Positions 2,861-59,204 of a DNA stretch of 64,000 bases are shown piece by piece. The stretch comes from Nitrospira sp. ND1 (GTDB lineage: Bacteria > Nitrospirota > Nitrospiria > Nitrospirales > Nitrospiraceae): contig NZ_FWEX01000006.1 of NCBI RefSeq assembly GCF_900170025.1, positions 2,943,236-3,007,235 of the forward strand, written 5' to 3'. Each line of letters opens with the position of its first letter. The first letter of the stretch is position 1. Both the position numbers and the translations under genes were made by a program. The notes below the pieces were generated by a model that saw nothing but the letters and a program-made list of their open reading frames with translations, was not told where the DNA came from and did not search any database.

Positions 2861-3946
2861 ATGTTGCACCGATTGGCACTGCGAGTCCTTCCAAGTTTGA
2901 CGCTGGCCGTCACCGAAGATTCGGTTCGAACAAGAAAGCGCCTGGTCATGTTTGTCCCGGGGCTGGTGGCGTTTGCGGTGTACCGGGCGGCGAAGCATGG
3001 CATGTCGCTGGCAGAGCCGGTGACGCTGCTGCTCTTGAGTGGCCTGGTGTCGCTGGTGACGGCGATCTGTGCCTATCGCGTCGGTCGAGGGGTGCCGTTT
3101 GCGCAACTAGTGAGCGCGGATGGAGCCAGACGTATCGGATGGATTCTTGCCTGGATCGGTTTTGTGTATGGAGTGCAGTTGTCGCTGCTCGTGCTGGCGC
3201 TACTCTGGCTCGTTGGATATGACTATGCCAAGCATCCCGATGGCCCGGCCATGATGGCGATGATTATTCCCAGTACGGCGGTCGCGCGCGATGCATTTGA
3301 GATCGGGTATGTGCGATGGCTTGAAGCCAGCGGGCGGCCGTTCGTCACGTTTCCTGATGGCGCGGGGCTTCGTGCCCTGCTGGCGCGAGTGACGCCGGCC
3401 CTGGCGGGGTGGGTGGCGGCAGGGGTTGCCGGTTGTGTGAGTCTCTCGCTGCTTCTGGCGGCGCTCGTTAGCGGTGACATGGCCGTGTTGGCGCAAGGCG
3501 CTGTCGTGACGATGGCGGCGGGAACGGTCGGTCTCTTGGCATTTTTCGCCGGGCAAGGAAATGGGGCAGCCTGGACGGCCGGATTGTCCTCGACCCGCTG
3601 GAATGAATTGGTGAAGTTTTGGTGGTGGCCCGGGCTGGCCTTCGCCTCGACCTACTATCTGGTGTTGGTCGGCGGTTGTCTGTATGTGTTGAAACAGCCG
3701 ATGAGTTCACCCGGACTCTTCGCTGGCGTCGCCGGCCTCGTCGGTGGCGTGATGGCGCTGTACTGCTATTACCTGGGACATCGGCGGGATATCGAAAATC
3801 GTCAGCCTGGAGGAGTGCCCAGCGCCTTGTTGCGCTGCCCATTCGTCATGGGCATTCTCGGCAAGTCCCGCGAAGCCATTGCTGGTACGGCATTGAGTGG
3901 ATCTGCGGCTGTCTTTGACAAGAACAGCCAGAGAGCGTCGTCATGA
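2861..3946 (+). CDS. Polytopic membrane protein of unknown function
   Basis: About 361 residues from the ATG at 2861; a GTG at 2840 in the same frame is also possible, and neither has a clear Shine-Dalgarno. It has seven to eight strongly hydrophobic segments with short charged loops. I see no recognised domain and no haem-binding Cys motif. Its stop overlaps the start of the first bd-like oxidase gene by 4 nt (ATGA at 3943-3946), so translational coupling and a role in assembly of, or as partner to, that oxidase are likely inferences. A YIP1-like fold is possible but unproven. Confidence 0.6.
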   Translation: MLHRLALRVLPSLTLAVTEDSVRTRKRLVMFVPGLVAFAVYRAAKHGMSLAEPVTLLLLSGLVSLVTAICAYRVGRGVPFAQLVSADGARRIGWILAWIGFVYGVQLSLLVLALLWLVGYDYAKHPDGPAMMAMIIPSTAVARDAFEIGYVRWLEASGRPFVTFPDGAGLRALLARVTPALAGWVAAGVAGCVSLSLLLAALVSGDMAVLAQGAVVTMAAGTVGLLAFFAGQGNGAAWTAGLSSTRWNELVKFWWWPGLAFASTYYLVLVGGCLYVLKQPMSSPGLFAGVAGLVGGVMALYCYYLGHRRDIENRQPGGVPSALLRCPFVMGILGKSREAIAGTALSGSAAVFDKNSQRASS

Positions 3947-5811
3947 TTAAACGCCTTCCGCTTCCGTCCGTGATCCTGTTGTTGCTGTCCGGGTTGCTGG
4001 TGGCCGCGAGTGTTCTGCTGCTGAGTCCGCCATCGCTGGTGGCCGCCGACCCCTCCGCAGATGTGTATTTCCATACGCCCGGAGTTCCGGACGGTCCTTC
4101 GGCGCCGACGGCGAATGAGAACCACTATCCGCAAGTCGGGTCACTCGATAGCCGGTTGTTGATGTGGTTTATCATCCAGCAGCATACCTACTTCGGTGGT
4201 TTTGTCCTGGCCCTACCGATCTTTTGCGTCCTCTTGGAATTTCTGGGGTTGGTCGCGAGGAATCCCGCGATGGCCGTGCGTTATGACGGGTTGGCGCAAG
4301 ATCTGTTGAAGGTGGCGCTGCTCGCGCTTTCCGTGACCGCAGCGGTGGGGAGCGTGATGCTGACGATGTTCATCACGCTGTACCCCAGCTTCATGCAATA
4401 CATGGGAGGCACCTTCAAGGTCATGATGCCTCTCTATGCGCTGGTGTTTGTCGGGACGACGTTTCTCACGATCGCGTACTACTACAGTTGGGATCGGATG
4501 GCAGCGCCGGGGTCGAAGTGGGTCCACCTGTCGATCGGCGTGCTTGCGGTGGTGTTCGGCACGTCGCTGCTGTTATTAGCCAATGCCTGGTCCGCCTTCA
4601 TGATGGCGCCGTCCGGCGTCGACGGGCAGGGACGGTATTTGGGGAATCCCTGGCATTTACTTCGCTCGGCACTCTGGAATCCCCTGAACTTGCATCGATT
4701 CCTCGCGGACATCATGTCGGGTGGCGCGGTCGTCCTGGCCTATGCCTGTTATCGGTTCTTTTCCGGCAAGAGTCAGGAGGAGCGGGCTTATTACGATTGG
4801 GTCGGCTATGTGTTCTTGTTTGTGACGGTCTGCGCCTTGTTGCCGATGCCGTTCGCCGGTTATTGGTTGATGCGTTCCGTCTATGCGTACAGTCAAAGCA
4901 TGGGCGTCACGATGATGGGCGGGTTGCTGACCTGGCTCTTCGTGGTGCAGGCGCTGTTGATCGGCGCCCTCTTTCTTGGCGTGAATTACTATCTCTGGCA
5001 GAGCATGGGACGGATTCGCGGCGGTGAGCGTTATCAGCCCTACTATCAATATCTCCTGCTCGCGCTGACGGGTTGTCTGTTTATCTGGTTGACGCCTCAC
5101 ACCATTTTGATGACCGGGACGGAAGTCAAAGCCATGGGCGGGGCGCAGCATCCGGTCATCGGAAACTACGGCGTCATGTCGTCGAAGAACGGCGCGGTCA
5201 ACGTGATGATCTGCATCACCGCCTTGAGTTACATCTTTTATCGACGCGCAAATCGGACGATGACGATCTCATGGGCCAAAGCGGGAAATGTCATCCTGGG
5301 GGCCCTGTTCGGTTTCGGAACGGCGCACATCATCGGCTTATCGGTCTATGGATTTTATCTTCCCGCCAGTCTCCGCGTCGGGTTGTCCGGCCCGCAGGCC
5401 GTCACCACGTTGCTCGTGGTCACGCTGGGTTTGCTGCTGAACCGACGTATGTTGCGTGGTGCAACAATCCACGGTCCTGTACAGTGGGGCCAGATTTCGG
5501 TTCGCGGAATGGTTGGCTTGTTCGGGTTGGCGGCGGCGTTTACCTGGGTGATGGGGTTGATGGGGTATATCCGCTCTTCGGGCCGGTTGGCTTGGCACGT
5601 CAACGAGTTGATGCCGGATACGTCCCCCTGGGCGTTTACGCCATCGCTTGGATTCGCCGCAAAAATGGTCACGATCAACATGGCCCTGTTTTGGGGGGCG
5701 GTATTCTTCCTATTTTGGGTCTGTCAGCGCGGGCAGCAGCCGGTGATGCATGAAGATGTGAGCGCGGAGAAGGAGGCAGGCTTTCTGCCGTCTCCGTCTC
5801 ATGAGGGATAA
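3943..5811 (+). CDS. Cytochrome bd-like oxidase subunit I homologue (copy 1)
   Basis: 622 residues: an N-terminal hydrophobic signal/anchor (about 7-30), a periplasmic stretch, then about 13 transmembrane helices. It is clearly paralogous to the protein at 9341-11260 along its whole length. Shared features include QQHxYxG (His81 here), a WHLLRSALWNPLNLHR block (His251), YWLMRxVYAYxQxMG and PHTILMTxxELKAMGG. The first His and the NPxxxH block recall the haem b ligands of quinol oxidase subunit I, but length and overall sequence are far from canonical CydA. Nitrospira is known to carry several such bd-like proteins, one of which has been proposed as the terminal oxidase. No CydB gene is adjacent. 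It is start-coupled to the preceding membrane gene. Confidence 0.7.
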   Translation: MIKRLPLPSVILLLLSGLLVAASVLLLSPPSLVAADPSADVYFHTPGVPDGPSAPTANENHYPQVGSLDSRLLMWFIIQQHTYFGGFVLALPIFCVLLEFLGLVARNPAMAVRYDGLAQDLLKVALLALSVTAAVGSVMLTMFITLYPSFMQYMGGTFKVMMPLYALVFVGTTFLTIAYYYSWDRMAAPGSKWVHLSIGVLAVVFGTSLLLLANAWSAFMMAPSGVDGQGRYLGNPWHLLRSALWNPLNLHRFLADIMSGGAVVLAYACYRFFSGKSQEERAYYDWVGYVFLFVTVCALLPMPFAGYWLMRSVYAYSQSMGVTMMGGLLTWLFVVQALLIGALFLGVNYYLWQSMGRIRGGERYQPYYQYLLLALTGCLFIWLTPHTILMTGTEVKAMGGAQHPVIGNYGVMSSKNGAVNVMICITALSYIFYRRANRTMTISWAKAGNVILGALFGFGTAHIIGLSVYGFYLPASLRVGLSGPQAVTTLLVVTLGLLLNRRMLRGATIHGPVQWGQISVRGMVGLFGLAAAFTWVMGLMGYIRSSGRLAWHVNELMPDTSPWAFTPSLGFAAKMVTINMALFWGAVFFLFWVCQRGQQPVMHEDVSAEKEAGFLPSPSHEG

Positions 5812-6948: not shown

Positions 6949-7863
6949 ATGGAAAATAGGGGTGTGCTGATCGGGTCGATCATCTTTGTGTTCGGGTCGT
7001 TTATTTTGATGATTGGCGGGCTGGTCTACGAATCCTATAAGGCGAAGCAGTTGCGCCAGCAGGTGCTTTCGATCACCACGGAGGTCAAGCCGGTCGCCGT
7101 GGCCGCCGCGCAGGACTTCTCGATGTATAAGACGCTTGTCGGCGATGACGGCCGTGACATGGTGCAGGTTTCTGAAGGGCCGTTTGTGATGGGTAGCCGT
7201 GACAACGATAGTGATCCGGATGAAAAGCCTGAGCACCAGGTATATCTGAAAGCATATTTTCTGGATAGGCACGAGGTCACGCAGGATGCCTATGATCGCT
7301 TTGCCAGGATGACGAAGCGAATCAAGCGAAAGATCGAAGTGTTCGAAGAGGATCCTGTCAAATTGCTGAAACCTGAATATCCGATGATTGCTGTGACGTG
7401 GGACGATGCAGAGGCCTATTGCAAATGGGCCGGCAAGCGGTTGCCGACGGAAGCGGAGTGGGAGAAGGCCGCTCGCGGAGAAGGGAAGCGTCGCTATGCC
7501 TGGGGTGATGAGTTTGTGGTGGGATACGCGAACATCGATGGAAATGAGGACGGATTTCGTTATCTGGCTCCCCCGGGGTCGTTCGAGTCGGGACGCAGTC
7601 CCTACGGAATCTACGATATGACGGGTAACGTCGGTGAGTGGGTCGCGGATTTTTACGACGAAAATTCGTATCGGGGCTCTCCGTATCGTGACCCGAAGGG
7701 GCCTGACCAGGGCGAGCAGCGTGTTATCCGTGGCGGTTCCTGGCGGGAAACCAAGCGAAATGTGCGTTCGTCAAAGCGATTTCAGGCAAAACCGTGGCGA
7801 CATGACATAACGGTCGGCTTTCGCTGCGCGAAAGACATCGAGGCCGATGTGGTCGTTAAGTAG
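6949..7863 (+). CDS. Membrane-anchored formylglycine-generating-enzyme-like (SUMF1) protein, copy 1
   Basis: 304 residues: one N-terminal transmembrane anchor (about 5-27), then an FGE/SUMF1 domain from about residue 65. Family marks are FVMGSRDNDSDPDEKPEH, FLDRHEVTQDAYDRF, VTWDDAEAYCKWAGKRLPTE, AEWEKAARG, GNVGEWVADFY, RVIRGGSW and a final VGFRCA. The Cys pair that acts in sulfatase-activating FGE is not seen between RVIRGGSW and VGFRCA, so a true sulfatase-modifying activity is unlikely. Such domains are also used as structural or ligand-binding modules. It is followed 11 nt later by a paralogue. Confidence 0.8.
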   Translation: MENRGVLIGSIIFVFGSFILMIGGLVYESYKAKQLRQQVLSITTEVKPVAVAAAQDFSMYKTLVGDDGRDMVQVSEGPFVMGSRDNDSDPDEKPEHQVYLKAYFLDRHEVTQDAYDRFARMTKRIKRKIEVFEEDPVKLLKPEYPMIAVTWDDAEAYCKWAGKRLPTEAEWEKAARGEGKRRYAWGDEFVVGYANIDGNEDGFRYLAPPGSFESGRSPYGIYDMTGNVGEWVADFYDENSYRGSPYRDPKGPDQGEQRVIRGGSWRETKRNVRSSKRFQAKPWRHDITVGFRCAKDIEADVVVK

Positions 7864-7874
7864 TCTGTATCGGC

Positions 7875-8828
7875 ATGCTCGAAACGCGATTCAAAGTGAT
7901 TTTTCTTCTGGTGGTGCTGTTTGCCGCCAGCTTGCCCGTCATTGCGATTCTTCGAGGGACGGTATCCACTCCGTTTGAAGCTGAGCCTCGGCCGGCCGAA
8001 CAGGATCAGGGAGCCTCCAATCCTGAGCTGGCCTCCGCTGAGGAACCTCTTGAAGAAGAGCTCGTTGTGATTCCTGCGGGGCCGTTTATCTTCGGGACCA
8101 ACCGGGGCGGGTTTGATGAGCAGCCTGAGCGGACGATTTATCTCGACCAGTTTCTGATTGATCGCTACGAGGTGACTAACGCGCAATATGCTGCGTTTGT
8201 GAAGGCAACGGGGCATCGAAAGTCCGGACCTCCCTCACGGTATGCGAAAAATACGCTGCGTATGCGAGGTGTGAATCAGCCTGCGGTCTATGTCTCCTGG
8301 GAGGACGCGAAAGCCTATTGCGAGTGGCGTGGAAGGCGGTTGCCTTCTGAGGCGGAGTGGGAGAAGGCCATGCGCGGGCCCGATGGTCGCCTGTGGCCAT
8401 GGGGAAACGTTGAAGTGCCGAACGCGGCGAATTGGGCTCGCGTGGACGATGGGTTTGAGGTGGCGGCGCCGGTGGGGCGGGTGAAGAGTGACGCCAGTCC
8501 CTATGGGGTTATGGATGGTGCGGGCAATGTTATGGAATGGGTGAACGATTGGTACCTTGAGGGGGCCTATGCTGCGGCTTCAGAGCGCAATCCGGAAAGT
8601 CCTGAATACGGAACCTATAAGGTGTTGCGCGGGGCTGCCTATACCAGTTCGGGGTCTGATTTACGCATTACCGCGCGCAGCAAGATGATGCTGGATTTTC
8701 GGGATGAAACAATCGGCTTTCGTTGCGCTCAATCAAGTGCAGAGAATGGCCGGTCGTCTGGAGGCGTGGGGCCGGAGAAAATCATAGGAAATCGAAGTAG
8801 TAGAGGATCAGAAACACGGCCAAAATGA
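7875..8828 (+). CDS. Membrane-anchored FGE-like (SUMF1) protein, copy 2
   Basis: 317 residues with an N-terminal anchor (about 7-26), an acidic linker, and an FGE-like domain from about residue 70. Marks include VVIPAGPFIFGTNRGGFDEQ, FLIDRYEVTNAQYAAFV, VSWEDAKAYCEWRGRRLPSE, AEWEKAMRG, GNVMEWVNDWY, VLRGAAY and IGFRCAQ. The catalytic Cys pair of copper-dependent FGE is again absent. The 3' end overlaps by 47 nt a convergent miniprotein gene on the opposite strand (8886-8782), so the Ser/Gly/Arg-rich tail after residue 290 may not be conserved. Confidence 0.78.
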   Translation: MLETRFKVIFLLVVLFAASLPVIAILRGTVSTPFEAEPRPAEQDQGASNPELASAEEPLEEELVVIPAGPFIFGTNRGGFDEQPERTIYLDQFLIDRYEVTNAQYAAFVKATGHRKSGPPSRYAKNTLRMRGVNQPAVYVSWEDAKAYCEWRGRRLPSEAEWEKAMRGPDGRLWPWGNVEVPNAANWARVDDGFEVAAPVGRVKSDASPYGVMDGAGNVMEWVNDWYLEGAYAAASERNPESPEYGTYKVLRGAAYTSSGSDLRITARSKMMLDFRDETIGFRCAQSSAENGRSSGGVGPEKIIGNRSSRGSETRPK

Positions 8829-9340: not shown

Positions 9341-11260
9341 ATGGGCTCTGTAACCCGCACGAAGTTGATGTCGATCATGGCGCTAGGCGCAATGATCGGC
9401 CTCCTCCTCTTGCCTATTCTGGTTGCGATCCCTGCCCTTGCTAGCGACGGTGGCGCTCCTGCTGCCGGCGTGAAGAAAGAGGGTGGTGACGCAAAGGTTG
9501 AGAAGGGTAAGGACGTTTATTACAAGACGGAAGGTATTGTCTCGGGCCCACCGGCTCCTAAGACAACGGACAGCGAGAAGGACTATCCTCGATACAATTT
9601 CGAGAGTCGCGTCCTGCTCTGGTTTGCCAACCAGCAGCACCTTTACTATGGTAGCTTCGTCTTGGCTGTTCCTATTTTCTGTATGGTCATCGAATTTATG
9701 GGGGTCGTGACCAAAGATAAGGCGATGGCTAAGCGGTATGATCAGCTGGCGTACGACTTTATTAAGATCAGTCTGACGGCCTACTCTCTGACGGCCATCT
9801 TGGGCGGAATTCTGATCTTTACCTTCCTGACTCTCTATCCAGCCTTCTTCCAGTATCTCTCGGGTATCTTTAGGCCGGTCATGCATATTTATGCATTGAT
9901 GTTCGTGGCCGAAAGCGGAACTCTCTACATTTACTATTATGGCTGGGACAAGATGAAGGAGGGGTTCCTGAAATGGATTCACCTCAGCATGTCCGTCGTC
10001 CTGAACGTCATCGGTACGATCTTGATGTTCCTGGCGAATTCATGGATCGGCTTCATGATGTCTCCTGCCGGCGTTGACGAGCAGGGCCGGTATCTCGGTA
10101 ATATCTGGCACGTGATCCACACCGCGTTGTGGAACCCGCTCAATCTCCATCGCATTCTCGGTAACATGGCCTTCGGTGGTGGTGTCGTGGCGGCCTATGC
10201 GGCCTATCGGTTCTTGTCGGCTAAGACCGATGAGGAGCGTGCTCACTACGATTGGATGGGTTACATCGCGATGGCTCTCGGTGTGGCGTTCCTGATTCCG
10301 TTGCCATTCGCGGGTTATTGGTTGATGCGTGAGGTCTATGCCTATCGGCAGCAGATGGGTATCACCTTGATGGGCGGATTGTTGGCTTGGTTGTTCATCA
10401 TTCAGGCAACCATGATCGGAATTCTGTTCTTGAGCACCAACTACTATCTCTGGCAAGCGCTTGGCCGGATGCGTGGTGCGGAAAAATATCAGCGCTACAT
10501 TAAGTATCTCGTGTTCCTGCTCACGTGCGGATACCTGGTCTTTATTACGCCGCATACCATCGTTATGACTCCCGCCGAGTTGAAGGCGATGGGTGGCCAG
10601 CAGCATCCAGTGCTGGGTAACTATGGCGTGATGTCGGCCAAAAACGGCGGCATCAATGTCATTATCACGACAACCGTGTTGAGCTTCGTGTGGTATATGC
10701 GAGGCAATAAGGTTTCGACGGTGTCGTGGTCGAAGTTCGGCAATATCTTCATGGGCTGTTTCTTCTTCTTTGCGTACCTCAACATCATTATGTTGGCTGT
10801 GTACGGCTACTATATTCCGGCGAACGTACGCGTCGGCTTGTCCGTTCCGCAGGTGGCTACTACGCTGTCGTGCCTGTTCTTCATGTTCGCGCTTAACAGC
10901 GTCATGATGAAGGGTGCCAAACAGATGGGACCGATTGAGTGGGGTAAGATTTCTGCCCGGTCTCAATACGCGCTCATCATGTTGGCCACGGCTTTCACGT
11001 GGATGATGGGTCTGATGGGATACATCCGATCCTCTGTCCGCCTGTTCTGGCACGTCAATGAAATTATGCGTGACAATTCACCTTGGGCCTACACCCATAC
11101 GGTGGGCTTCGCTGCGAACATGATTTCGGCCAACGTGCTGTTCTTCTGGATTTCAATTATGTTCGTGTTTTGGTTAGGGGCCCTTGGTGCTAAGAAGGCA
11201 CCGGCCGAGGCGAAGGCAGCTGTGCCTGGCAGGGCGGCAGCACCAGCAGTTGGTCACTAA
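9341..11260 (+). CDS. Cytochrome bd-like oxidase subunit I homologue (copy 2, cytochrome c-linked unit)
   Basis: 639 residues, start fixed by a perfect AAGGAGG 6 nt upstream. N-terminal signal/anchor (about 12-35), a periplasmic Lys/Ala-rich stretch, then about 13 helices. It matches copy 1 (3943-5811) throughout and shares QQHxYxG (His100), the HTALWNPLNLHR block (His270), YWLMREVYAYRQQMG, PHTIVMTPAELKAMGG and GYIRSSxRLxWHVNE. These His positions are candidate haem ligands. Unlike canonical cytochrome bd there is no cydB; instead two cytochrome c genes and an NxrC-like gene follow. Inference: a cytochrome c-oxidising or quinone-linked oxidase of the type described as bd-like in Nitrospira. 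Oxygen reduction is not shown by sequence alone. Confidence 0.75.
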   Translation: MGSVTRTKLMSIMALGAMIGLLLLPILVAIPALASDGGAPAAGVKKEGGDAKVEKGKDVYYKTEGIVSGPPAPKTTDSEKDYPRYNFESRVLLWFANQQHLYYGSFVLAVPIFCMVIEFMGVVTKDKAMAKRYDQLAYDFIKISLTAYSLTAILGGILIFTFLTLYPAFFQYLSGIFRPVMHIYALMFVAESGTLYIYYYGWDKMKEGFLKWIHLSMSVVLNVIGTILMFLANSWIGFMMSPAGVDEQGRYLGNIWHVIHTALWNPLNLHRILGNMAFGGGVVAAYAAYRFLSAKTDEERAHYDWMGYIAMALGVAFLIPLPFAGYWLMREVYAYRQQMGITLMGGLLAWLFIIQATMIGILFLSTNYYLWQALGRMRGAEKYQRYIKYLVFLLTCGYLVFITPHTIVMTPAELKAMGGQQHPVLGNYGVMSAKNGGINVIITTTVLSFVWYMRGNKVSTVSWSKFGNIFMGCFFFFAYLNIIMLAVYGYYIPANVRVGLSVPQVATTLSCLFFMFALNSVMMKGAKQMGPIEWGKISARSQYALIMLATAFTWMMGLMGYIRSSVRLFWHVNEIMRDNSPWAYTHTVGFAANMISANVLFFWISIMFVFWLGALGAKKAPAEAKAAVPGRAAAPAVGH

Positions 11261-11345: not shown

Positions 11346-12659
11346 GTGATTGAACTCATTAAAGCGGCCGTAGCGATGGGCTGGCCTGCATTAGGGATTC
11401 TTGTGGCCCTAATGTTTTATTTTAAGGCCTCCATTTCGGATCCTGTTGCCAATAAGCGTGCGGTATTCAAGACATTCATCGGCACTATTGGCGCCATGCT
11501 TCTTTTTATGGCTATCGCCAATTACAAGATGAATTTCTTCGAAGAGTCCAGGCTTTTGCCCGTGTCTTTGGTTCTGATTACGTCTATGACGTTCATGATG
11601 GCGCTCTATTTCACGAATATCAGCGCCTTGCTGAAAATCGGCGGATTCATGTTCTTCATCGCCGCCGCTCTCTCAGGATATGGGAACTGGTTGCCCCAGG
11701 TTGAGGGTGGATTTCCGCCCATCGAAGAAAAGAAAGACTTCAGCAACATGCCCCAGACGGAGCTTGCTGACGAGGGCGAGAAGATTATTTTCGGTGGAGT
11801 CGGTCAGAATAAGGTTCAGGGCGCAATTGGTAAGGGCCAGTGTCCGCTCTGCCATGCTTTCCACAAGGGTATGTTGGGCGAGCGTGCACCAAACTTAGAT
11901 GGACTCCCAGAGCGTGCAGGGACACAGATCGAAGATCCTCGCTATCATAAGGGGAACGCTGCTGCTCGCGATTCCGATCAAAAGGAAGCATTTCCTGGGT
12001 CAGGAACGGCCGAGAATGGGCAGGAGTATATTGCTGAGTCGCATGCGTGTCCAAGCTGTTTCGTGGTTGCTGGTTATGGCGTGAAGGGAACCAATGACAA
12101 GGTTAGCCCGATGCCGTCTATCCATAAGCCACCGATCTCTTTGTCTTTGCCTGAGCTGGCCGCGGTAGACACCTGGTTATATATGAGGGAAGGGCGAGAC
12201 GCCCCTGGTTTTGACGAGATTGTCAAATCCTATGAAAAGTTCATCCCGGAATCGGATCGTCCAAAACCACCAACAGAAGGTGATGCAAAGCCTGGCGCCA
12301 GCGCCTTGATGGCGGACGGAACCGAACCAGTCGATCAGATTTTTGCAAAGGGACAATGTGTCGCGTGCCATACGATTCCTGGAATCGCTGGAGCGACCGG
12401 CACGATTGGTCCGAAGTTGGTCGAGGGAACGAATGCTCCACTGCGCATTAAAGACAAGGATTACAAGGGGAAGGCGAAAAGCGTTCCTGACTACATCATG
12501 GAATCCATTGTCGAGCCTAGTGCTTACGTTGTGAAGGGATTCCCCGACAACACCATGCCTAAGGTGTTCGGGCAAAAGCTTAGCGCCGGCGCCCTCAAGA
12601 AACTTGTAGATTACCTCTCGCAGGTACAGGAAGGGAAAGAGCCACCCAAGGCCTCCTAA
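11346..12659 (+). CDS. Membrane-anchored cytochrome c with two CxxCH sites and one CxxCF
   Basis: 437 residues from GTG 11346 (AGGAGG 8 nt upstream). The N-terminal third has four hydrophobic helices (about residues 5-115), followed by a periplasmic part with two cytochrome c-like domains. Haem c motifs are CPLCH at residues 166-170 and CVACH at 338-342. A third motif at residues 235-239 reads CPSCF, lacking the axial His, so it probably binds no ordinary haem c. Candidate distal Met ligands occur after each CxxCH (for example NTMPKVFG after the second). It follows bd-like oxidase 2 and precedes a second membrane cytochrome; together they likely pass electrons to or from that oxidase. Confidence 0.78.
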   Translation: MIELIKAAVAMGWPALGILVALMFYFKASISDPVANKRAVFKTFIGTIGAMLLFMAIANYKMNFFEESRLLPVSLVLITSMTFMMALYFTNISALLKIGGFMFFIAAALSGYGNWLPQVEGGFPPIEEKKDFSNMPQTELADEGEKIIFGGVGQNKVQGAIGKGQCPLCHAFHKGMLGERAPNLDGLPERAGTQIEDPRYHKGNAAARDSDQKEAFPGSGTAENGQEYIAESHACPSCFVVAGYGVKGTNDKVSPMPSIHKPPISLSLPELAAVDTWLYMREGRDAPGFDEIVKSYEKFIPESDRPKPPTEGDAKPGASALMADGTEPVDQIFAKGQCVACHTIPGIAGATGTIGPKLVEGTNAPLRIKDKDYKGKAKSVPDYIMESIVEPSAYVVKGFPDNTMPKVFGQKLSAGALKKLVDYLSQVQEGKEPPKAS

Positions 12660-12707: not shown

Positions 12708-13745
12708 ATGAAAGCATTAATGTCGGTCGTGGCATTGATCGGCGTCCTGGGGTTGCTCATGTTGATCGGAATGATCTTCGGAGTGGTGCCCTCGAACACC
12801 GTCAGGCTCGTTGAGGGCTACATGCCCATGCAGGTACTGAGTGAGCTGGCCATCTTCGTGGCTGGGTTCACCGGCCTGAGTTATCTAGCCAACTCAATGG
12901 GAATTGCCTTCCCCCGGTTTTGGCAGGGTGTGTTGTTTTGGGCTTTTATCCAAGCCTATCTCAAGTTCCGTATCTATCCACCGATTCCATTTAGCGTTCG
13001 TGCCATGTACGGAACCGTATCGTTCGTAGCCGTGTTCATGTGGGTGTCGGCCAACGAAGAGGATTGGAAGAAATTCCGTCAGCCGATTCTCAATGTTTTG
13101 GATGCCAACACTGGATTCCATAAGGCACTCAGGACGATGTATCTCATTCTCTTACCGATTCTTATCGGCGGATTCTCATTCATGACCATGAAGCCGAGTG
13201 TGGATGAGCCGATTGAGCTCCGGACGGTACATCCGGCACCTCCAGCTAGCACGAAGGTGCACGGCAAGACCTACACCCTGCAAACGTCACAGAATCCGTA
13301 TCGGGTGAATCTCGAGGGCAAGTATGACCAGGCGTACAGCAATAAGCTGATCGTCGAACAGGGGATGGGACGACTGATGGCACCCAATGCCAACCCATGG
13401 GATGACAAGGCTGAAGGGTATCTGAAGTATGTTCGGGAAGGCGGCGAAATATTCTTCCAGAATTGTCACTTCTGTCACGGCGACAATTTGAACGGTCGCG
13501 GTCTCCATGCCTTTGCGTTCAATCCGATTCCCGCTAACTTCACAGACCCGGGAACGATTGCACAGTTACAGGAAACCTTCATTTTCTGGCGCGTAGCTAA
13601 GGGCGGAATTGGTTTGCCGAACGAAGGATTCCCGTGGGCCTCGGTTATGCCACCATGGGAACAGCACCTGACGACGGATGAAATTTGGAAGGTGATCCTG
13701 TTCGAGTATTGGCACACGGGATACTATCCTCGGACATGGGACTAA
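12708..13745 (+). CDS. Membrane-anchored monohaem cytochrome c
   Basis: 345 residues, start supported by AAGGGAG upstream. Four to five hydrophobic helices (about residues 3-160), then a periplasmic cytochrome c domain with one CHFCH site (253-257). It is followed by HGDNLNGRG and a candidate Met ligand in WASVMPPWE, a pattern of class I cytochromes in alternative-complex or NXR-type chains. It lies 48 nt after the dihaem cytochrome gene and 47 nt before the NxrC-like gene. With the preceding protein it forms a plausible membrane electron conduit. Confidence 0.75.
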   Translation: MKALMSVVALIGVLGLLMLIGMIFGVVPSNTVRLVEGYMPMQVLSELAIFVAGFTGLSYLANSMGIAFPRFWQGVLFWAFIQAYLKFRIYPPIPFSVRAMYGTVSFVAVFMWVSANEEDWKKFRQPILNVLDANTGFHKALRTMYLILLPILIGGFSFMTMKPSVDEPIELRTVHPAPPASTKVHGKTYTLQTSQNPYRVNLEGKYDQAYSNKLIVEQGMGRLMAPNANPWDDKAEGYLKYVREGGEIFFQNCHFCHGDNLNGRGLHAFAFNPIPANFTDPGTIAQLQETFIFWRVAKGGIGLPNEGFPWASVMPPWEQHLTTDEIWKVILFEYWHTGYYPRTWD

Positions 13746-13792: not shown

Positions 13793-15577
13793 ATGAGCAA
13801 ACTTCGTATGAACGTAAAGGCGACGCCGATTTTCGGAGCAGCCTTAGGGGCCCTTATCCTCTCCGCGAGTGCGGTTGGGCTGGGCCATGCTGGAGATCTT
13901 CCGGAAGGCTTTTCAAAAGGGGAGTTGGCACCTGCTCCTCCCGCCGAGATGATCGAAGCTGGAAAGCGTGTCTATTTCACCAAGTGTGTCTGGTGTCACG
14001 GCGTGGATGGTGCTGGTGATGGGCCAGGTGCCGATCGTCTGTGGCCACGACCGAGAAATTTCAACCAGGGCACATTCAAAATCCGTCACACAGCGAGCGG
14101 AGAGTTGCCCCTGTTCAATTACAACGAGAAGACTCCTGATTCTGGGAAGAATGACCTGCTCGATACGGTTACGCATGGTCTCCCCGGTTCCGCCATGCCA
14201 CCGTGGGAAGGTATCTTGACCGAGGAGCAGCGGCTTCAGGTTTTGTCGTTTGTCACGACTCAGTTGGTCAAGGATCGAAAGTTTACTGACAAGCAGTCTG
14301 AGACACAGACGATTCTTCAACTTGGAACCATCAAACCTGCTGAGCCGACTGAAGAGAGCATTAAGAAGGGCGCCCAGCTGATTGTCGATAAGAAATGTAT
14401 TGAGTGCCATGGTGTGGAAGGGCGTGGGGATGGAAATGCTTTCAATTTGAAAGATGACTGGGGCTTTTCAATTCAACCGGCCGATTGGCACAAGTGTTGG
14501 AACTTCCGTGGGAGTCGCCAAGATCCTTATAATGTGCGGAATATTTTCCGTACCTTCTCCACGGGTGTAAACGGGACGCCAATGCCGTCATTCGCGGATA
14601 GCACGTCCGTTGAAGACCGTTGGAGCATTGCGAACTTCGTAAACTCGTTGTGTGAGCGCGATGCCGAGGGTAAGCCTCTTGGCATTGATCCTTTGACCGA
14701 CAAGCCGAAGATCAACTTCGTTGTTCCTTCTGCTCCAGTCGAGGGTGAAATTTCGAACGATCCCGAGAATGAGATGTGGAAGAAGCAGGGCCGTCGTTAT
14801 GTTGCGATGGGCGGTCAGATCACCCACAAGCCTCGTAACTTCGTCAATCGTATCGATGATATCTGGGTCAAGTCGTTGTACAACGAGAAAAACGTGGTGT
14901 ATCTGATCCAGTGGGATGACCGGACGAAGAGTGTCGCCGAGGGGAAACTTCCTTGGGCGCCTACTCAAGTCAATGTTGAGAACTTTGGTGTGAAGGAGCA
15001 AGCGCCTAAGACCGGAGAAGAAGGGTCAATTGCTGCTGCTCAGAACAATTATGCCGTCTATAACGATGGCATCGCGTTCCAATTCCCGATCAAGTGGCAA
15101 GAGATTCCTGCCCCGTTCAAGCCACGATATTTGTGGGGGGATGCGAAGTTCAACGCCGACATTCTGAAGTGGGAGGCGGATGGTTCTCTCCGGTCCTTTA
15201 AGGGGACTGGTTGGGATCAGGACTTTGAAGAACGTGATGACTTCGAAGAAAAAGTTAAGTTGTTGAAGTCAGAGTGGAAGAACGGACAGTGGACTGTCAT
15301 GATCTCCCGTCCGCTGAAGGGCGACAAGGATGATTATGATGAGTACACGCGGTTCGACATCGGTAAGTACATTCCGATGGTCTTCTTTGCCTGGGACGGA
15401 CACAACGGAGATGCGGGACGGAAGATGGCCGTATCGGCCTTCTATTACACGATCTTGCAGCCTCCGATTCCACAGGAAGTGTATATTTACCCAGCGGTTA
15501 TCGCAGTTGGCGTGGTGTTTTTGGAAGGCTGGATGCTGACCCGCCGAGCCAACAAGAAGAAGGGTAAGGTCCTCTAA
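13793..15577 (+). CDS. NxrC-like (ethylbenzene dehydrogenase gamma-type) protein fused to two cytochrome c domains
   Basis: 594 residues from ATG 13793, where a signal peptide begins (hydrophobic core about 14-34); the longer upstream frame would overlap the previous gene. Order: signal peptide, cytochrome c domain with CVWCH (65-69), second domain with CIECH (202-206), a haem-b-type domain of the DMSO-reductase gamma family from about residue 320, and a C-terminal transmembrane helix (about 565-583). The domain keeps the late AWDGHN...RKM stretch that holds the Lys ligand in NxrC and EbdC. It has no CMG motif at the place of the Met ligand. It closes the operon before a terminator. Confidence 0.75.
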   Translation: MSKLRMNVKATPIFGAALGALILSASAVGLGHAGDLPEGFSKGELAPAPPAEMIEAGKRVYFTKCVWCHGVDGAGDGPGADRLWPRPRNFNQGTFKIRHTASGELPLFNYNEKTPDSGKNDLLDTVTHGLPGSAMPPWEGILTEEQRLQVLSFVTTQLVKDRKFTDKQSETQTILQLGTIKPAEPTEESIKKGAQLIVDKKCIECHGVEGRGDGNAFNLKDDWGFSIQPADWHKCWNFRGSRQDPYNVRNIFRTFSTGVNGTPMPSFADSTSVEDRWSIANFVNSLCERDAEGKPLGIDPLTDKPKINFVVPSAPVEGEISNDPENEMWKKQGRRYVAMGGQITHKPRNFVNRIDDIWVKSLYNEKNVVYLIQWDDRTKSVAEGKLPWAPTQVNVENFGVKEQAPKTGEEGSIAAAQNNYAVYNDGIAFQFPIKWQEIPAPFKPRYLWGDAKFNADILKWEADGSLRSFKGTGWDQDFEERDDFEEKVKLLKSEWKNGQWTVMISRPLKGDKDDYDEYTRFDIGKYIPMVFFAWDGHNGDAGRKMAVSAFYYTILQPPIPQEVYIYPAVIAVGVVFLEGWMLTRRANKKKGKVL

Positions 15578-32236: not shown

Positions 32237-33190
32237 ATGAGACTGGTGCAGACACGCAATAAGCGTTTGGTGTTTGGCATTCTGTTCTCTGCGCTGATCG
32301 TCGGCATTATGTTGACGATTGGGCAGGTGCCTCTCGCGGTCAGCCAACCGGTGACCATTCCCGTGAAGGCGATCAAGGGGGTAATCCCGATGGATGGTGC
32401 AAACCCCATCTGGGAAGGAGTGCCAGGTGTCATCATCCCATTGAGCGGCCAGACCATCACGACCCCGATGCACCCGAATATTTCGGTGAAGTCGGTGTTT
32501 GTGAAGGCGGTCAGCAATGGGAAGGATTTGGGGTTGCGCCTTGATTGGAGCGACCAGACCAAGAACGACACGGCAATCGGTCCGCAGGATTTCCGGGACC
32601 AGGCCGCCGTCATGTTCCCGGTCAACACCGCGGGAGCCCCGCCATTCCAGTGCATGGGCCAGTCAGGCGGGACGGTCAACATCTGGCGTTGGAACGCGGA
32701 GTGGCAGAAGGATCTCGGCAAGGATAGCGCTGGGATGTGGGACGTGGATGACCAATACCCTGGCATCTTCTGGGATTACTATTTCGAAGAGCCGGCTGGT
32801 GGAGTGACCTATCCGGATCGTATTGGCCGGAGCCTTGGCCCATTCAATTCCGGCATTTGGTCCGGTAACATCATGTCCGACCCGACCCTGCGCGTCAGCT
32901 CCGTCGAGGATTTGAATGCCAACGGGTTCAGCACCTTGACCACCCAGGCCCATCAGGATGTGATCGGCAATGGTGTGTGGGAGCCGTCCGGGTCCCTCAA
33001 GGGCGGTGGATACACCGGCCCGACCTGGCGTGTAGTCGTGAAGCGTTCGCTGGAGACCAGCGATGCCAACGACACCCAGTTCAAGGCAGGCGCTTCGGTG
33101 CCAATCGCCTTCGCAATCTGGGATGGTTCCAACATTGAACGAAACGGTATGAAAGCGCTCTCCACTTGGTTCACGCTGAAGTTGCCGTGA
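32237..33190 (+). CDS. nxrC: Candidate nitrite oxidoreductase gamma subunit NxrC, copy 1
   Basis: 317 residues with AGAGGAGGG before the ATG. N-terminal signal peptide or anchor (about 11-30), then a DMSO-reductase-type haem-b-binding domain of the ethylbenzene dehydrogenase gamma family. The two residues that hold haem b in EbdC have plausible equivalents: Met140 in FQCMGQ and Lys306 in GMKALSTWF. Expected role: takes electrons from NxrB on the periplasmic side and passes them to cytochrome c. It follows the TorD-like gene, and a terminator-like hairpin follows it. Confidence 0.82.
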   Translation: MRLVQTRNKRLVFGILFSALIVGIMLTIGQVPLAVSQPVTIPVKAIKGVIPMDGANPIWEGVPGVIIPLSGQTITTPMHPNISVKSVFVKAVSNGKDLGLRLDWSDQTKNDTAIGPQDFRDQAAVMFPVNTAGAPPFQCMGQSGGTVNIWRWNAEWQKDLGKDSAGMWDVDDQYPGIFWDYYFEEPAGGVTYPDRIGRSLGPFNSGIWSGNIMSDPTLRVSSVEDLNANGFSTLTTQAHQDVIGNGVWEPSGSLKGGGYTGPTWRVVVKRSLETSDANDTQFKAGASVPIAFAIWDGSNIERNGMKALSTWFTLKLP

Positions 33191-38974: not shown

Positions 38975-38998
38975 ACGGTTAGCGGATTGCGTCGGGAC

Positions 38999-39841
38999 AT
39001 GAGGCGAATGACATCGGTTCACACATCCCGCACTCGGTTACTGACACTTCTCTCCAGCCTGTTCGTTCTCGCCCTCATTCTGGGCGGTCTCGGTATCCCC
39101 ATCGTCAGTTCAGAAGGCATGATCATCCGTGCACAGGCCCTCTCGGGAGACATCCCGACCGCGCCCGAAGATCCCCTCTGGCAAAAAATTTCGCCCATGA
39201 CCTTGCCATTGAGCGGCCAGGTGATCACCCGGCCGGTGTGGCCGGAGCCGACGGCCCATGCGTTGGCAGTCCGCGCCGTGCACAACGGAACCGACATCGC
39301 CTTCTTATTGGAATGGCAGGACAATACGAAAAACGATCGCTTGACGCCTGGCACCTTCCGTGACGGTGTTGCGCTGGGATTGCCGCTCGGCGATGCGCCG
39401 GCATTTTTCTGTATGGGTCAGCTCGATCATTACATCAATATTTGGCATTGGAAAGCCGATTGGCAGAGCGACATCGACCGGCGTGCTTCCAGGACCACGG
39501 AAAAAGACAAGGCGGCCAGTGGTGAACCCCGGCGCTTTGAGGTCATTCCTCGGCGGGCGTCCTCGGTGGAAGATTTGATCGGCGGCGGGTTCAGCACCCT
39601 GACCACCAAGGAGAAGCAGGGGCGCGTGCAGGGAAAAGCGACCTGGAAAGACGGCACGTGGCGAGTCGTGATGCGTCGGCCGCTGTCGAGTGAAGAGCAG
39701 GAGAATGAAGCGAAGCTGATTCCGGGTCGTATTCAGGCCGTGTCTTTTGCCGTGTGGAACGGCGAGAACAAAGAGCGTAACGGACAGAAAGCCATTGCCC
39801 CCTGGTTTCAACTCGCGCTGGATCCGACCACAAAGACGTAA
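38999..39841 (+). CDS. nxrC: Candidate nitrite oxidoreductase gamma subunit NxrC, copy 2
   Basis: 280 residues from ATG 38999 (an ATG at 39008 is also possible). Signal peptide (hydrophobic about 14-37), then the same haem-b domain as copy 1. The likely ligands are Met139 in FFCMGQ and Lys264 in GQKAIAPWF. Shared motifs with copy 1 include PLSGQ, TKNDxxxGxxxFRD, NIWxWxAxWQ and SSVEDLxxxGFSTLTT. It is shorter by a loop in the middle. Upstream of a PDZ gene and two pentahaem cytochromes, so it may use a different electron acceptor from copy 1 (inference). Confidence 0.8.
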   Translation: MRRMTSVHTSRTRLLTLLSSLFVLALILGGLGIPIVSSEGMIIRAQALSGDIPTAPEDPLWQKISPMTLPLSGQVITRPVWPEPTAHALAVRAVHNGTDIAFLLEWQDNTKNDRLTPGTFRDGVALGLPLGDAPAFFCMGQLDHYINIWHWKADWQSDIDRRASRTTEKDKAASGEPRRFEVIPRRASSVEDLIGGGFSTLTTKEKQGRVQGKATWKDGTWRVVMRRPLSSEEQENEAKLIPGRIQAVSFAVWNGENKERNGQKAIAPWFQLALDPTTKT

Positions 39842-40422: not shown

Positions 40423-41730
40423 GTGAACGACAAGGGACGATCCATTCAAAAGTTGGCGATGGGTGGGGTGCTGCTGTTCATGGCACTGCTCAACATCACC
40501 TTTCATGAACGGGCGATCGCGCAGAAGACCGATGGCCAGGTACCGGCTGATTGGGTGGCGGAGATCGAAAAGATTTTCATCCGGTCGGAAGATTGCAAGC
40601 AGTGCCACGATCGTCATTACGAAGAATGGAAGGGCATGCGCGAGCAAACTCCGGACCTGAAATCGTTCGGGCGGGTCGATGCCGCCTTGTTGCATGGTAC
40701 CTCGTTCGAATCGCCGGTGTTCCGGACGGTGCTGGGGGTATGGATGCAGACCAATCCGACGATGCAGGAGCGACAACGTTGTTTGTCGTGTCATGCCCCG
40801 GCCGTGACGGTCTTCCCGCAGCATGTCGAGAAGATCAGCGCGCAAATCCTGTCAGGCAAGCCGCAGGTCGAGGGAATCGGCTGTGCGTCCTGTCATCTCA
40901 TCAACGCCGTCGAAACGACGCCGCTGCCCCCTCCAACCTACAAGGTGCAGCCGGGCGAGATGCTCTACGGTCCCTATGCCGATCCGGAAGAGAACTTGGT
41001 ACATCCGGCGACACAGTTGCCGCTGTTTCGTGGCGCGAATTTCTGCACGTCCTGCCATTTCGACAAGGTGAAGGATGTCACGCAGAAGGATTTACCCGGC
41101 GAGATTCTGCAAGGGACCATCTGCCAGGATTGCCATATGGAGCCCTCCACGGGAAGCTCCACGTCGAAACGCGGCGCCATGACCCGCGCGATCGGCCGCC
41201 ATTGGTTTCGAGGGGTTGTCATTCCAGGGACGTTGCTGAAGAACCGCAACCTGCAGGCGGAATGGATGCCGCGTATCGAGATAGACGCCACGAAATCCGG
41301 AGCGGGAGTGGAAGGCACTGTGCTGGTGAAAGTCGGCAGTCTGCCGCATAGTTTCCCCGACGGCGATCCGGTGTTGAAGCAGTTCTTCCTTGCGATCACG
41401 ATCAAGGATGCGCAAGGGAATGTGTTGGGTGAAGACACAAAACGATTCGGTCTTCCGTACGACAAGATTCTGCGCGGCCCGATTCCGGACCCGTTCATCA
41501 AGGGCGGCAATACGCGCCGTGTCCCGTTCTCTCAAACGCTGAAGGATGGCGCCGCGCCGGCGACGATTGAGGTCGTGCTCAGTTATGCATTGATCCCGGA
41601 ACCGGAAGCGGAGCTCAAGGCGAAGTATCTGGCGACTCTGGCGAACGATCAGGAGCGGGCGACCGCTAAAAAGGTCATTGAGGAATACATTCAGCCTCGT
41701 ATGCTGACCTATCGGTCCAAATCACTCTAA
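40423..41730 (+). CDS. Pentahaem cytochrome c, copy 1
   Basis: 435 residues, GTG start. N-terminal signal or anchor (about 11-33). Five CxxCH motifs: CKQCH (58-62), CLSCH, CASCH, CTSCH and CQDCH, the first four in the HAO/cytochrome c554-like spacing. The C-terminal 200 residues have no haem site but a beta-rich domain (GSLPHSFPDGDPVLKQFFLA). Likely periplasmic electron carrier. It is paralogous to the next gene, and both follow nxrC2 and a PDZ gene, which suggests a dedicated electron outlet. Confidence 0.85.
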   Translation: MNDKGRSIQKLAMGGVLLFMALLNITFHERAIAQKTDGQVPADWVAEIEKIFIRSEDCKQCHDRHYEEWKGMREQTPDLKSFGRVDAALLHGTSFESPVFRTVLGVWMQTNPTMQERQRCLSCHAPAVTVFPQHVEKISAQILSGKPQVEGIGCASCHLINAVETTPLPPPTYKVQPGEMLYGPYADPEENLVHPATQLPLFRGANFCTSCHFDKVKDVTQKDLPGEILQGTICQDCHMEPSTGSSTSKRGAMTRAIGRHWFRGVVIPGTLLKNRNLQAEWMPRIEIDATKSGAGVEGTVLVKVGSLPHSFPDGDPVLKQFFLAITIKDAQGNVLGEDTKRFGLPYDKILRGPIPDPFIKGGNTRRVPFSQTLKDGAAPATIEVVLSYALIPEPEAELKAKYLATLANDQERATAKKVIEEYIQPRMLTYRSKSL

Positions 41731-41798: not shown

Positions 41799-43037
41799 GT
41801 GAAGAATCGACGAGGATTGCTGCAGGGAGTCGTGATCGGCCTGGTGTTGCTGGCGGTGGCCATCACCAGCTACGGCGTGCAGCAGGGATTAGCCCAAGAT
41901 GCCAAGGCCCAGGCCACGATCGAAAAGGCTTTTCCCAGCTCAAGCAAGTGTAAGCGATGTCATGAGCGTGTGTTTGAAGAGTGGGAGACGTCGCCGCTTT
42001 CGCGTTCGATACATACGCCGACCTTCCGGGCGGCGCTCGATGCCTACCTGACCTCCTCTGCCGGGAAAGACAAAGCCCTGTGCTTTCGCTGTCATGCCCC
42101 GCATGTGCGCGAGTTTGCCGATCAGGCTCAATTGTTCGTGACTCAGGCCCAATCCGGTGAGCCATCATTGGATGGTGTGGCCTGCGTGCAATGTCATCTC
42201 ATCAAGCAGGTCGATCGGACGAAACAACCGCCTGAGCCGAAGTACGATCTCGGCAGCAAGACCATGTATGGCCCATACAAAGATTTCGCGCAGAACCTTG
42301 CGCATCAATCCATGGAATTGGGGCTCTTCCACAAGTCTGACCTCTGCTTGAATTGCCACCAGGTGGTGCCCGCTGCGGCGGACCTCGGCAAGAGTAACGA
42401 CTTGTTGGGGAATTGGGACCAGAGCAAAGCCGTGAAGTCGGGCAAGGAATGCCAGACCTGTCATATGCCTGAGCAGGTAGGGGAATCCGCCAATGGAGAA
42501 GCCAAGCGGAAGGTGGCGAATCATACGTTCCCGGGCCGCATCGGTCAGCTCAGGCAGGAAGCGGCCAAACTGGAAGTCTCGACCAAAGTAGAAGGGGAGA
42601 AAACTACCGTGACGGTAGCGGTGCAAAGCCTGGTCCCGCACAACCTGCCGACCACCCACCCCGGTTGGGCGAGCGTCGTCTTGGAATTGGATATCAAGGG
42701 CAAGAACCTGAAGACCGTGTTCAACGACAAACGCGTCTACGGCCGGACCTACGCCGACGCCAAAGGCCAGAAGACGGTGTTCGATTTTGAGGCCATCAAG
42801 GTGCTTGAAGAAACGGTCCTCAAGCCGGAAGAAAAGCGCGTGGAAACGTTTACCTTCACGACACCGAAGGACACCAAGACCTTCGACGTCGAGGCCATGC
42901 TCAGTTACGCTCCTGTGACCGGGCCATCTGCCTTTTTGCAGCGCATTGAGGCGGAATCCTCCAAGGGGGCGCAGGATCCTGTGTTTCAATCCATCCCCAT
43001 TGCGAAGTTCAGCGAGAACATTCCGGTCGCCAGGTAG
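41799..43037 (+). CDS. Pentahaem cytochrome c, copy 2
   Basis: 412 residues, GTG start with GAAGGAAAC upstream. N-terminal signal/anchor (about 9-30). Five CxxCH motifs: CKRCH (51-55), CFRCH, CVQCH, CLNCH and CQTCH. The first (ERVFEEW after the site) and third (VQCHLIKQV) match copy 1 closely (DRHYEEW; ASCHLINAV). The C-terminal beta-rich domain is also shared (SLVPHNLPTTHPGWASVVLEL). Tandem duplication is clear. Likely periplasmic multi-haem carrier. Confidence 0.85.
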   Translation: MKNRRGLLQGVVIGLVLLAVAITSYGVQQGLAQDAKAQATIEKAFPSSSKCKRCHERVFEEWETSPLSRSIHTPTFRAALDAYLTSSAGKDKALCFRCHAPHVREFADQAQLFVTQAQSGEPSLDGVACVQCHLIKQVDRTKQPPEPKYDLGSKTMYGPYKDFAQNLAHQSMELGLFHKSDLCLNCHQVVPAAADLGKSNDLLGNWDQSKAVKSGKECQTCHMPEQVGESANGEAKRKVANHTFPGRIGQLRQEAAKLEVSTKVEGEKTTVTVAVQSLVPHNLPTTHPGWASVVLELDIKGKNLKTVFNDKRVYGRTYADAKGQKTVFDFEAIKVLEETVLKPEEKRVETFTFTTPKDTKTFDVEAMLSYAPVTGPSAFLQRIEAESSKGAQDPVFQSIPIAKFSENIPVAR

Positions 43038-54184: not shown

Positions 54185-55474
54185 TTACAGCCAGTTCACG
54201 CGCTCGGCCGGCCGAATGTAGATCGGCTCTTCGACCTGAATACGCGCCACTTCCTTGCCCGACTTGTTGAAGCCCAACACGGTATCGTTGTACATGTCGA
54301 ACCGCTTCCCGTGGATCTGGGTTTCAAACACTTTCGGACCCGGAATGACATCGTACCGGAAGACGATCTGCTGGCTGGCTCTCCAGAGCTGGAGGACGGC
54401 CAACAGTTCGCGGCTGGGCACGAGGTACTTCTCGATGGCGTTATCCACGCCCGGGCCGAACATCTGCCGCGCGTAGCCTCGTGGGCTATGCCGTGGCGGA
54501 ATGTAGTAGCCGTTGGGCTCGGTGCCCCACTGCGGATACAGCGGGAGCGCCACCTGCTCCACACGAATCGTGTAGTACAGGGGATGCCAGCGGTCTTCCG
54601 CCCACAGGCCGTCTTCCCCGATGCGCATCAACGACTGCATGCGGATTTTGCCCACGCAGGCCGCCATACAACGCGTTTCCATCGGTTCGCCGCCCGTCAG
54701 CGGGTCTTTGCCTTCGATGCGCGGATAACACGCGATACACTTTTCCGAGACGCGCGTCGTGCCCCGATACATCGGCTTCTTGAACGGGCACTGTTCCACG
54801 CACTTCTTGTACCCGCGGCACCGGTTCTGGTCGATCAACACGATGCCGTCTTCCGGCCGCTTGTAGATCGCCTTGCGCGGGCAGGCTGCCAGGCAGCCCG
54901 GATAGGTGCAGTGGTTGCAGATCCGCTGCAGATAGAAGAAATACGTCTCATGCTCCGGCAAGCTGCTGCCGGAGAGACGCCACGGTTCGTCGCGCGTAAA
55001 GCCCGACTTGTCGATGTTCTCGACCAGGGCCCGCATCGAGGTCGCCGTGTCTTCATAGATGTTCACGAACCGCCATTCCTGGTCCGTGGGGATGTACCCG
55101 ATCGCCGCCTGCCCGACTTTGGCGCCGGCGTCGAAAATGGTCATTCCCTCGAACACTCCGTACGGCGCATGGTGCTTGCGTCCCACGCGGACGTTCCACA
55201 CCTGGCCGCCCGGGTTCACCTGCTCGATGAGCTGGGTGATCTTCACGTCGTAGAACTGCGGATACCCGCCGTACGGCTTGGTTTCCACGTTGTTCCACCA
55301 CATGTACTCCTGCCCCTTCGAGAAGAGCCAGGTCGACTTGTCGGCCATCGAACAGGTCTGACAAGCCAAACAGCGATTGATGTTGAACACAAAGGCAAAC
55401 TGCCACTTCGGATGCCGTTCCTCGTAGGGATACAGCATCTTCCGTCCCAGTTGCCAGTTATAGACTTCTGGCAT
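54185..55474 (-). CDS. nxrB: Nitrite oxidoreductase beta subunit
   Basis: 429 residues, minus strand, 108 nt after nxrA. Fe-S cluster motifs in order: CLACQTC (35-41), CNHCTYPGCLAACP, CRGYKKCVEQCP, and CIACYPRIEG with a later CMAACVGKIR, as in NarH-type subunits (four clusters). The site that is CxxW in NarH reads CRGY, so the fourth cluster is likely a 3Fe-4S type. No signal peptide, so it is expected to be carried out with NxrA by Tat (hitchhiker). It transfers electrons from NxrA to the gamma subunit. Confidence 0.95.
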   Translation of the reverse strand: MPEVYNWQLGRKMLYPYEERHPKWQFAFVFNINRCLACQTCSMADKSTWLFSKGQEYMWWNNVETKPYGGYPQFYDVKITQLIEQVNPGGQVWNVRVGRKHHAPYGVFEGMTIFDAGAKVGQAAIGYIPTDQEWRFVNIYEDTATSMRALVENIDKSGFTRDEPWRLSGSSLPEHETYFFYLQRICNHCTYPGCLAACPRKAIYKRPEDGIVLIDQNRCRGYKKCVEQCPFKKPMYRGTTRVSEKCIACYPRIEGKDPLTGGEPMETRCMAACVGKIRMQSLMRIGEDGLWAEDRWHPLYYTIRVEQVALPLYPQWGTEPNGYYIPPRHSPRGYARQMFGPGVDNAIEKYLVPSRELLAVLQLWRASQQIVFRYDVIPGPKVFETQIHGKRFDMYNDTVLGFNKSGKEVARIQVEEPIYIRPAERVNWL

Positions 55475-59026: not shown

Positions 59027-59204
59027 AATAGCTACCTCCTTGTGAGGCACATGAGTCCCTCATGCACCTGTTCGTACAACCTCACTACACTCACGTGGAT
59101 GCAATCTTGTCTGGAGTACCTCCTTTCCGTGTGTCGAATTGGAAACATTCGCCCCTCGCAATTCGAAATTGTCGAGCGGACATTCGCTCGCGATGTAGGA
59201 GTAT

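Follow-up and report, generated by a model that had tools for sequence, protein, structure and literature searches.

The window analysed here, a stretch of 64,000 nucleotides from Nitrospira sp. ND1, encodes NxrA and NxrB, two stand-alone NxrC-type proteins, and a protein in which two c-type haem domains are fused to an NxrC/EbdC-like (EB_dh) domain, hereafter the fusion. The fusion gene is the last of a run formed with a bd-like oxidase gene (9341) and two cytochrome c genes (11346 and 12708). The features are as follows.

9341..11260, + strand: bd-like oxidase subunit (Cyt_bd_oxida_I), same operon as the fusion; domain match and conserved neighbour
11346..12659, + strand: membrane cytochrome c with two CxxCH; domains, motifs and conserved neighbour
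12708..13745, + strand: membrane cytochrome c with one CxxCH; domains, motifs and conserved neighbour
13793..15577, + strand: alt_NxrC_2-type fusion of 594 aa (66.7 kDa unprocessed), with a signal peptide, two domains for c-type haem, the EB_dh domain and a membrane helix at the C-terminus
13985..13999, + strand: haem c motif 1, CVWCH; distal Met135 at 14195-14197
14396..14410, + strand: haem c motif 2, CIECH; distal Met264 at 14582-14584
14720..15460, + strand: EB_dh (NxrC/EbdC-like) domain, residues about 310-556; PF09459 E 1.7e-12
15134..15136, + strand: Trp448 codon, opposite the haem-b Met of NxrC/EbdC in alignments
15401..15403, + strand: His537 codon (WDGHN), conserved in the order, Asn/Asp elsewhere in the clade
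15422..15427, + strand: Lys544 and Met545 codons; Met545 opposite the NxrC Lys in a gapless alignment
15479..15541, + strand: membrane helix at the C-terminus, with positively charged residues after it; hydropathy, and a helix in both structure models
32237..33190, + strand: comparator, stand-alone NxrC-type protein; Met codon 32654, Lys codon 33152
38987..39841, + strand: comparator, stand-alone NxrC-type protein; Met143 codon 39413, Lys268 codon 39788
54185-55474, - strand: NxrB
55583-59050, - strand: NxrA

The EB_dh domain was recognized at the sequence level, with a PF09459 score of 48.4 bits (cut-off, 33.3). The TIGR03477 (NCBIfam) score of the fusion, 55.9 bits, is under the cut-off of 169.85, as are those of both NxrC proteins of the window (146 and 149 bits). 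The reading frame, the two CxxCH motifs (13985 and 14396) and the GRKMAV motif were as given in the original prediction, and so were CMGQ and GMKALS/GQKAIA in the two stand-alone NxrC genes. Frames are open in orthologues at 55-99% identity, which rules out a sequencing error or a pseudogene at 13793-15577. The N-terminal dihaem part matched chain 6h5l_B (E 3.4e-42). We take this 226-aa chain, which covers that part only and has no EB_dh domain, to be a Kust0458-type dihaem protein, with partner proteins that are presumably other than those of the fusion.

By its signal peptide, two CxxCH motifs, EB_dh domain, single C-terminal helix, and bd-like and two cytochrome c neighbours, the fusion agrees with the description of alt_NxrC_2. 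In N. moscoviensis, alt_NxrC_2 (NITMOv2_3640) is described in the available part of PMC6606698 as a dihaem protein of 66.8 kDa with one TMH, encoded beside bd-like_3 and two c cytochromes. Since architecture, mass and neighbours match by this published description, the 13793-15577 product is an already known protein, the alt_NxrC_2 of Nitrospira, and the question here is its haem b. The N. moscoviensis orthologue (locus L065) is 78% identical. Published statements on the Nitrospina and anammox fusions were taken from the accessible portions of PMC3578206, PMC8026999 and PMC6606698. The alt_NxrC domain of Nitrospina is described as haem-b-binding (PMC3578206), and the account of alt_NxrC_2 in the available text of PMC6606698 does not discuss the ligand. 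No discussion of the missing Met in alt_NxrC_2 was found in the accessible open-access literature, supplements and the 2010 N. defluvii genome paper aside.

A second bd-like oxidase gene (3943-5811) lies a few genes upstream of the fusion operon, and between the bd-like genes are two similar adjacent proteins (6949-7863 and 7875-8828), the latter matching the FGE-sulfatase domain. Downstream of NxrC, 40423-41730 and 41799-43037 encode adjacent five-CxxCH cytochromes, probably the two pentahaem proteins that PMC12342949, in its available part, names as conserved in nitrite oxidisers.

The haem b ligands of Kuenenia NXR-C are Met155 and Lys305, "as in EBDH" (PMC8387239, available part). Chain numbering identifies them as the CMGQ/RMGD Met and the GxK Lys, and the right residues had thus been chosen in the original prediction. 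Its claim that the 13793 protein has no Met ligand at the matching place was borne out. When the profile of the fusion clade was aligned with that of NxrC (probability 99.93, E 8.5e-36), Trp448 fell opposite the NxrC Met, the same match was obtained by multiple alignment, and the register at this position is bridged by related fusions that bear Met within the same motif, KPYF.MGD..PVNLW.W. The axial haem-b Met of the DMSO reductase type II gamma-subunit (EB_dh) class is therefore lacking in the fusion. The further claim that the Lys (GRKMAV) is kept held only in part: Lys544 is present but out of register. The GxK motif is one residue closer to WDG in all fusions than in NxrC, so that in a gapless alignment the NxrC Lys faces Met545, with Lys544 one residue earlier, and the second haem-b ligand is thus unsure. 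EbdC (2ivf_C) and Kuenenia NXR-C (7b04_C), which have a Met/Lys haem b, share the EB_dh fold with the fusion, and NxrC is homologous to it in sequence; the fusion differs from them by the replaced ligand Met and the shifted Lys, and additionally carries a membrane helix and two haem c domains.

Distribution of the fusion was analysed in 61 genomes (its own and 60 relatives), 49 of which had a match of more than 500 bits. Some of the remaining genomes are near complete (G006 and G060, 99%), indicating that absence or assembly gaps occur. The contig scan for fusions covered the best 80 of 194 relatives, which are the closest ones and all Nitrospira-type, and Nitrospina and anammox fusions lie outside this sample. 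Before the first alignment, L028 was removed because it is the same genomic location as L047, L044-L046 because they have no haem c, and L048 as a fragment; L177 (no CxxCH, contig edge) was removed before the tree. For the tree, 155 fusion rows were reduced at 88% identity to 56 non-redundant two-haem-c fusions, among which 35 Nitrospiria rows formed one clade with support of 100/100. Column statistics refer to a 35-row set picked by locus number to match this clade.

None of the 35 clade rows has Met at the ligand position (Trp, 15; Phe, 10; His, 10). The N. moscoviensis alt_NxrC_2 has Phe, and the N. defluvii fusion has Trp. On these sequences, the loss of Met is more than chance and no one-genome oddity, being common to the whole Nitrospiria fusion clade. 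Column 448 ranks 146 of 274 by entropy in the clade, and thus is no longer constrained like a ligand. As a control, the distal Met of both c haems (Met135 and Met264) is invariant across 173 aligned rows, a count that includes near-duplicates. As another, Met/Lys was found in 46 of 52 stand-alone proteins, and the remaining six have a conserved His with Lys. The Lys544 position is occupied in 34 clade rows (L043 ends before it), by Lys in 29 and by Arg in five; all 25 Trp/Phe rows of the tree set keep Lys. A Met or His elsewhere might have taken the axial place, as the original prediction allowed. Conservation pointed to no such substitute, with no His, Met or Cys column of the EB_dh domain reaching 90% in the 35-row clade. 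His537, His345 and Met545 were rejected as clade-wide replacement ligands because all three vary.

The other 21 rows of the tree have Met (14), Arg (3), His (2), Asp (1) or Gly (1). The two haem c domains described as gained by the protein are thus present but should not be taken as the cause of the Met loss, an idea weakened by these 14 Met-bearing fusions; judged from the alignments, haem b was not lost simply through the gain of haem c, since sister two-haem-c fusions mostly keep Met. Their existence suggests that fusion preceded Met loss. Outside the Nitrospiria clade, L218 and L219 have Asp and L176 has Gly in place of Met, and L173 and L174 have Arg, with the Lys replaced by Leu; the loss therefore seems to have happened more than once.

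Structure models were used for the fold. An AlphaFold model of the whole chain, built from 52 sequences, had a mean pLDDT of 54.6 with the ligand loops below 50 and was not used, and a domain model made with the two window NxrC added (pLDDT 67.8, pTM 0.67) was good for fold only, with confidence below 50 at residues 538-544 (including Lys544), too weak to judge coordination. The domain model matched 2ivf_C (Z 19.8, 2.8 Å over 193) and 7b04_O (Z 18.4, 3.3 Å over 206), followed by CBM9 (Z 13.7) and the DOMON domain of dopamine beta-hydroxylase (DBH; Z 11.1). CBM9 and DBH DOMON share the fold class without haem; they are different proteins with different roles, and their likeness to the fusion is at fold level only. 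According to the available part of PMC4846438, DBH DOMON has this fold and no haem ligands, which provides a precedent for a haem-free descendant.

Stand-alone EB_dh proteins of the alt_NxrC_1 type were also found, one of them in the same genome but outside the window (L209:8144-8977, minus strand). They have a conserved His (FAHGQ/FAHAQ) for the NxrC Met and keep the Lys (L209, L210, L211, L213, L214 and L193), and are predicted to hold a His/Lys haem b. Among loci of this type, L044-L046, L191, L193 and L210 adjoin genes like the cytochrome c gene at 12708, and L045, L046 and L210 are also near a bd-like gene.

The gene order bd-c-c-fusion is kept in all 13 loci of other Nitrospiria orders and in three of three loci of Nitrospirales family f4, with some genes cut by contig ends. 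We consider it rather probable that the fusion belongs to a bd-like oxidase complex as its periplasmic, tail-anchored cytochrome c subunit. The operon genes would form this one complex, the EB_dh domain would have no Met/Lys haem b and serve in docking or as a scaffold, and electrons would run via the two c haems. On the simplest account, the EB_dh domain descends from a haem-b-binding domain that was first fused to a dihaem cytochrome c. Once electrons could run via the c haems, it could have become a docking or scaffold module, and in the ancestral Nitrospiria fusion the axial Met would have given way to an aromatic residue (His, Phe or Trp). In the Trp448 version of the ND1 genome, EB_dh is most likely a haem-b-free, rigid module of this kind, and the two His/Met-ligated c haems would exchange electrons with the bd-like subunit and the membrane cytochromes c. 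The data agree with the earlier suggestion that haem b has possibly been lost or is bound in another way; this suggestion is partly supported, loss being the better-supported half. Counting against loss, by sequence, are the His in 10 of 35 clade rows, itself a possible ligand, and the conservation of His537 near the site within the order. The retention of Lys544 in most clade rows, and in every Trp/Phe row, means that one ligand may survive.

The His rows could also mark an intermediate. A path in two steps, from Met to His (with a His/Lys haem b, as predicted for alt_NxrC_1) and from His to Phe or Trp, has perhaps one chance in three of being right. His-bearing fusions (families f2, f4, f7, f10 and f12) might then bind haem b, and the Trp/Phe ones, including 13793-15577, would not, so that for the protein studied here this path agrees with the haem-b-free reading. 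It is favoured by the stand-alone alt_NxrC_1-type proteins, six of six having the conserved His with Lys, and by the occurrence of His in the first-branching clade rows and again in f4 and f2. However, Arg replaces Lys in 5 of the 10 His rows (one His row is cut off), and the order of changes was taken from a tree with no inferred root.

It is unlikely that haem b is still bound and held in some other way, either by Lys544 alone (five-coordinate, with Trp/Phe on the open face) or by Lys544 with a residue such as His537 or Met545. The constancy of Lys544 among the Trp/Phe rows argues for such binding, and His537 and Met545 are invariant in a 52-row Nitrospira alignment. Nevertheless, Lys544 is out of register with NxrC and is Arg in the five clade rows noted above, and other members of the clade carry Asn or Asp in place of His537. 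His537 is also present in the fusion L175, which still has Met, so it is no compensation for Met loss. In families f5, f6 and f9, Thr or Ser stands in place of Met545.

The literature proposes that the fusion is an NXR membrane anchor or gamma subunit that passes nitrite electrons on, which we judge to be improbable. Consistent with this proposal are the EB_dh homology and, in the available parts of the sources, strong transcription of alt_NxrC_2 with the nxr genes, a mass near an old 62-kDa band (PMC6606698), and the cluster reported in Nitrospina and anammox bacteria (PMC3578206). Against it, searches for NxrA gave no match above 22 bits in any of the 15 genomes of other Nitrospiria orders that bear a fusion (partial in G213, of the Met type only in G221) or in any of the four genomes of family f4, three of which carry the fusion. 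In the other three Nitrospirales families, 21 of 24 genomes gave an NxrA match, complete or fragmentary. Assembly-related misses occur (G024, 97% complete, had no NxrA match), but not on that scale. The fusion is therefore not confined to genomes with NxrA/NxrB, and the state of the Met column does not track NXR, as Phe and His are each found with and without it. UBA2166 is given in the available part of PMC12342949 as the only Nitrospirales clade without NXR; by elimination, f4 is probably UBA2166. The same source, as far as available, lists a conserved, diagnostic nitrite-oxidation gene cluster (NITMOv2_3614-3631) that leaves out NITMOv2_3640. That the fusion and its operon also occur in Nitrospiria that have no NXR speaks against an obligatory role as NXR subunit, and the fusion probably does not belong to the nitrite-oxidising enzyme. 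Its place in a bd-like oxidase operon, together with its occurrence in lineages that lack NXR, makes "form of NxrC" a doubtful label. The fusion may have a second role in nitrite oxidisers. Least probable, and in our view quite unlikely, is a Trp/Phe EB_dh whose Lys544-held, five-coordinate haem b, with the aromatic residue on its open face, would be a gas or substrate site (e.g., for NO or O2) beside the oxidase, not a relay.

Transcription of the fusion is high in a main nitrite oxidiser, and the protein has been suggested to connect NXR with the membrane. Should the EB_dh domain indeed have no Met/Lys haem b, models of the electron path through that haem would be wrong for the fusion, and "haem b subunit" would be a misleading label. 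As the fusion and the complete operon are present in Nitrospiria that lack NXR, the complex appears to be older than nitrite oxidation there and to have been at most co-opted for it. Met, His, Phe and Trp forms of a single domain occur naturally in this family, which makes haem-ligand loss directly testable.
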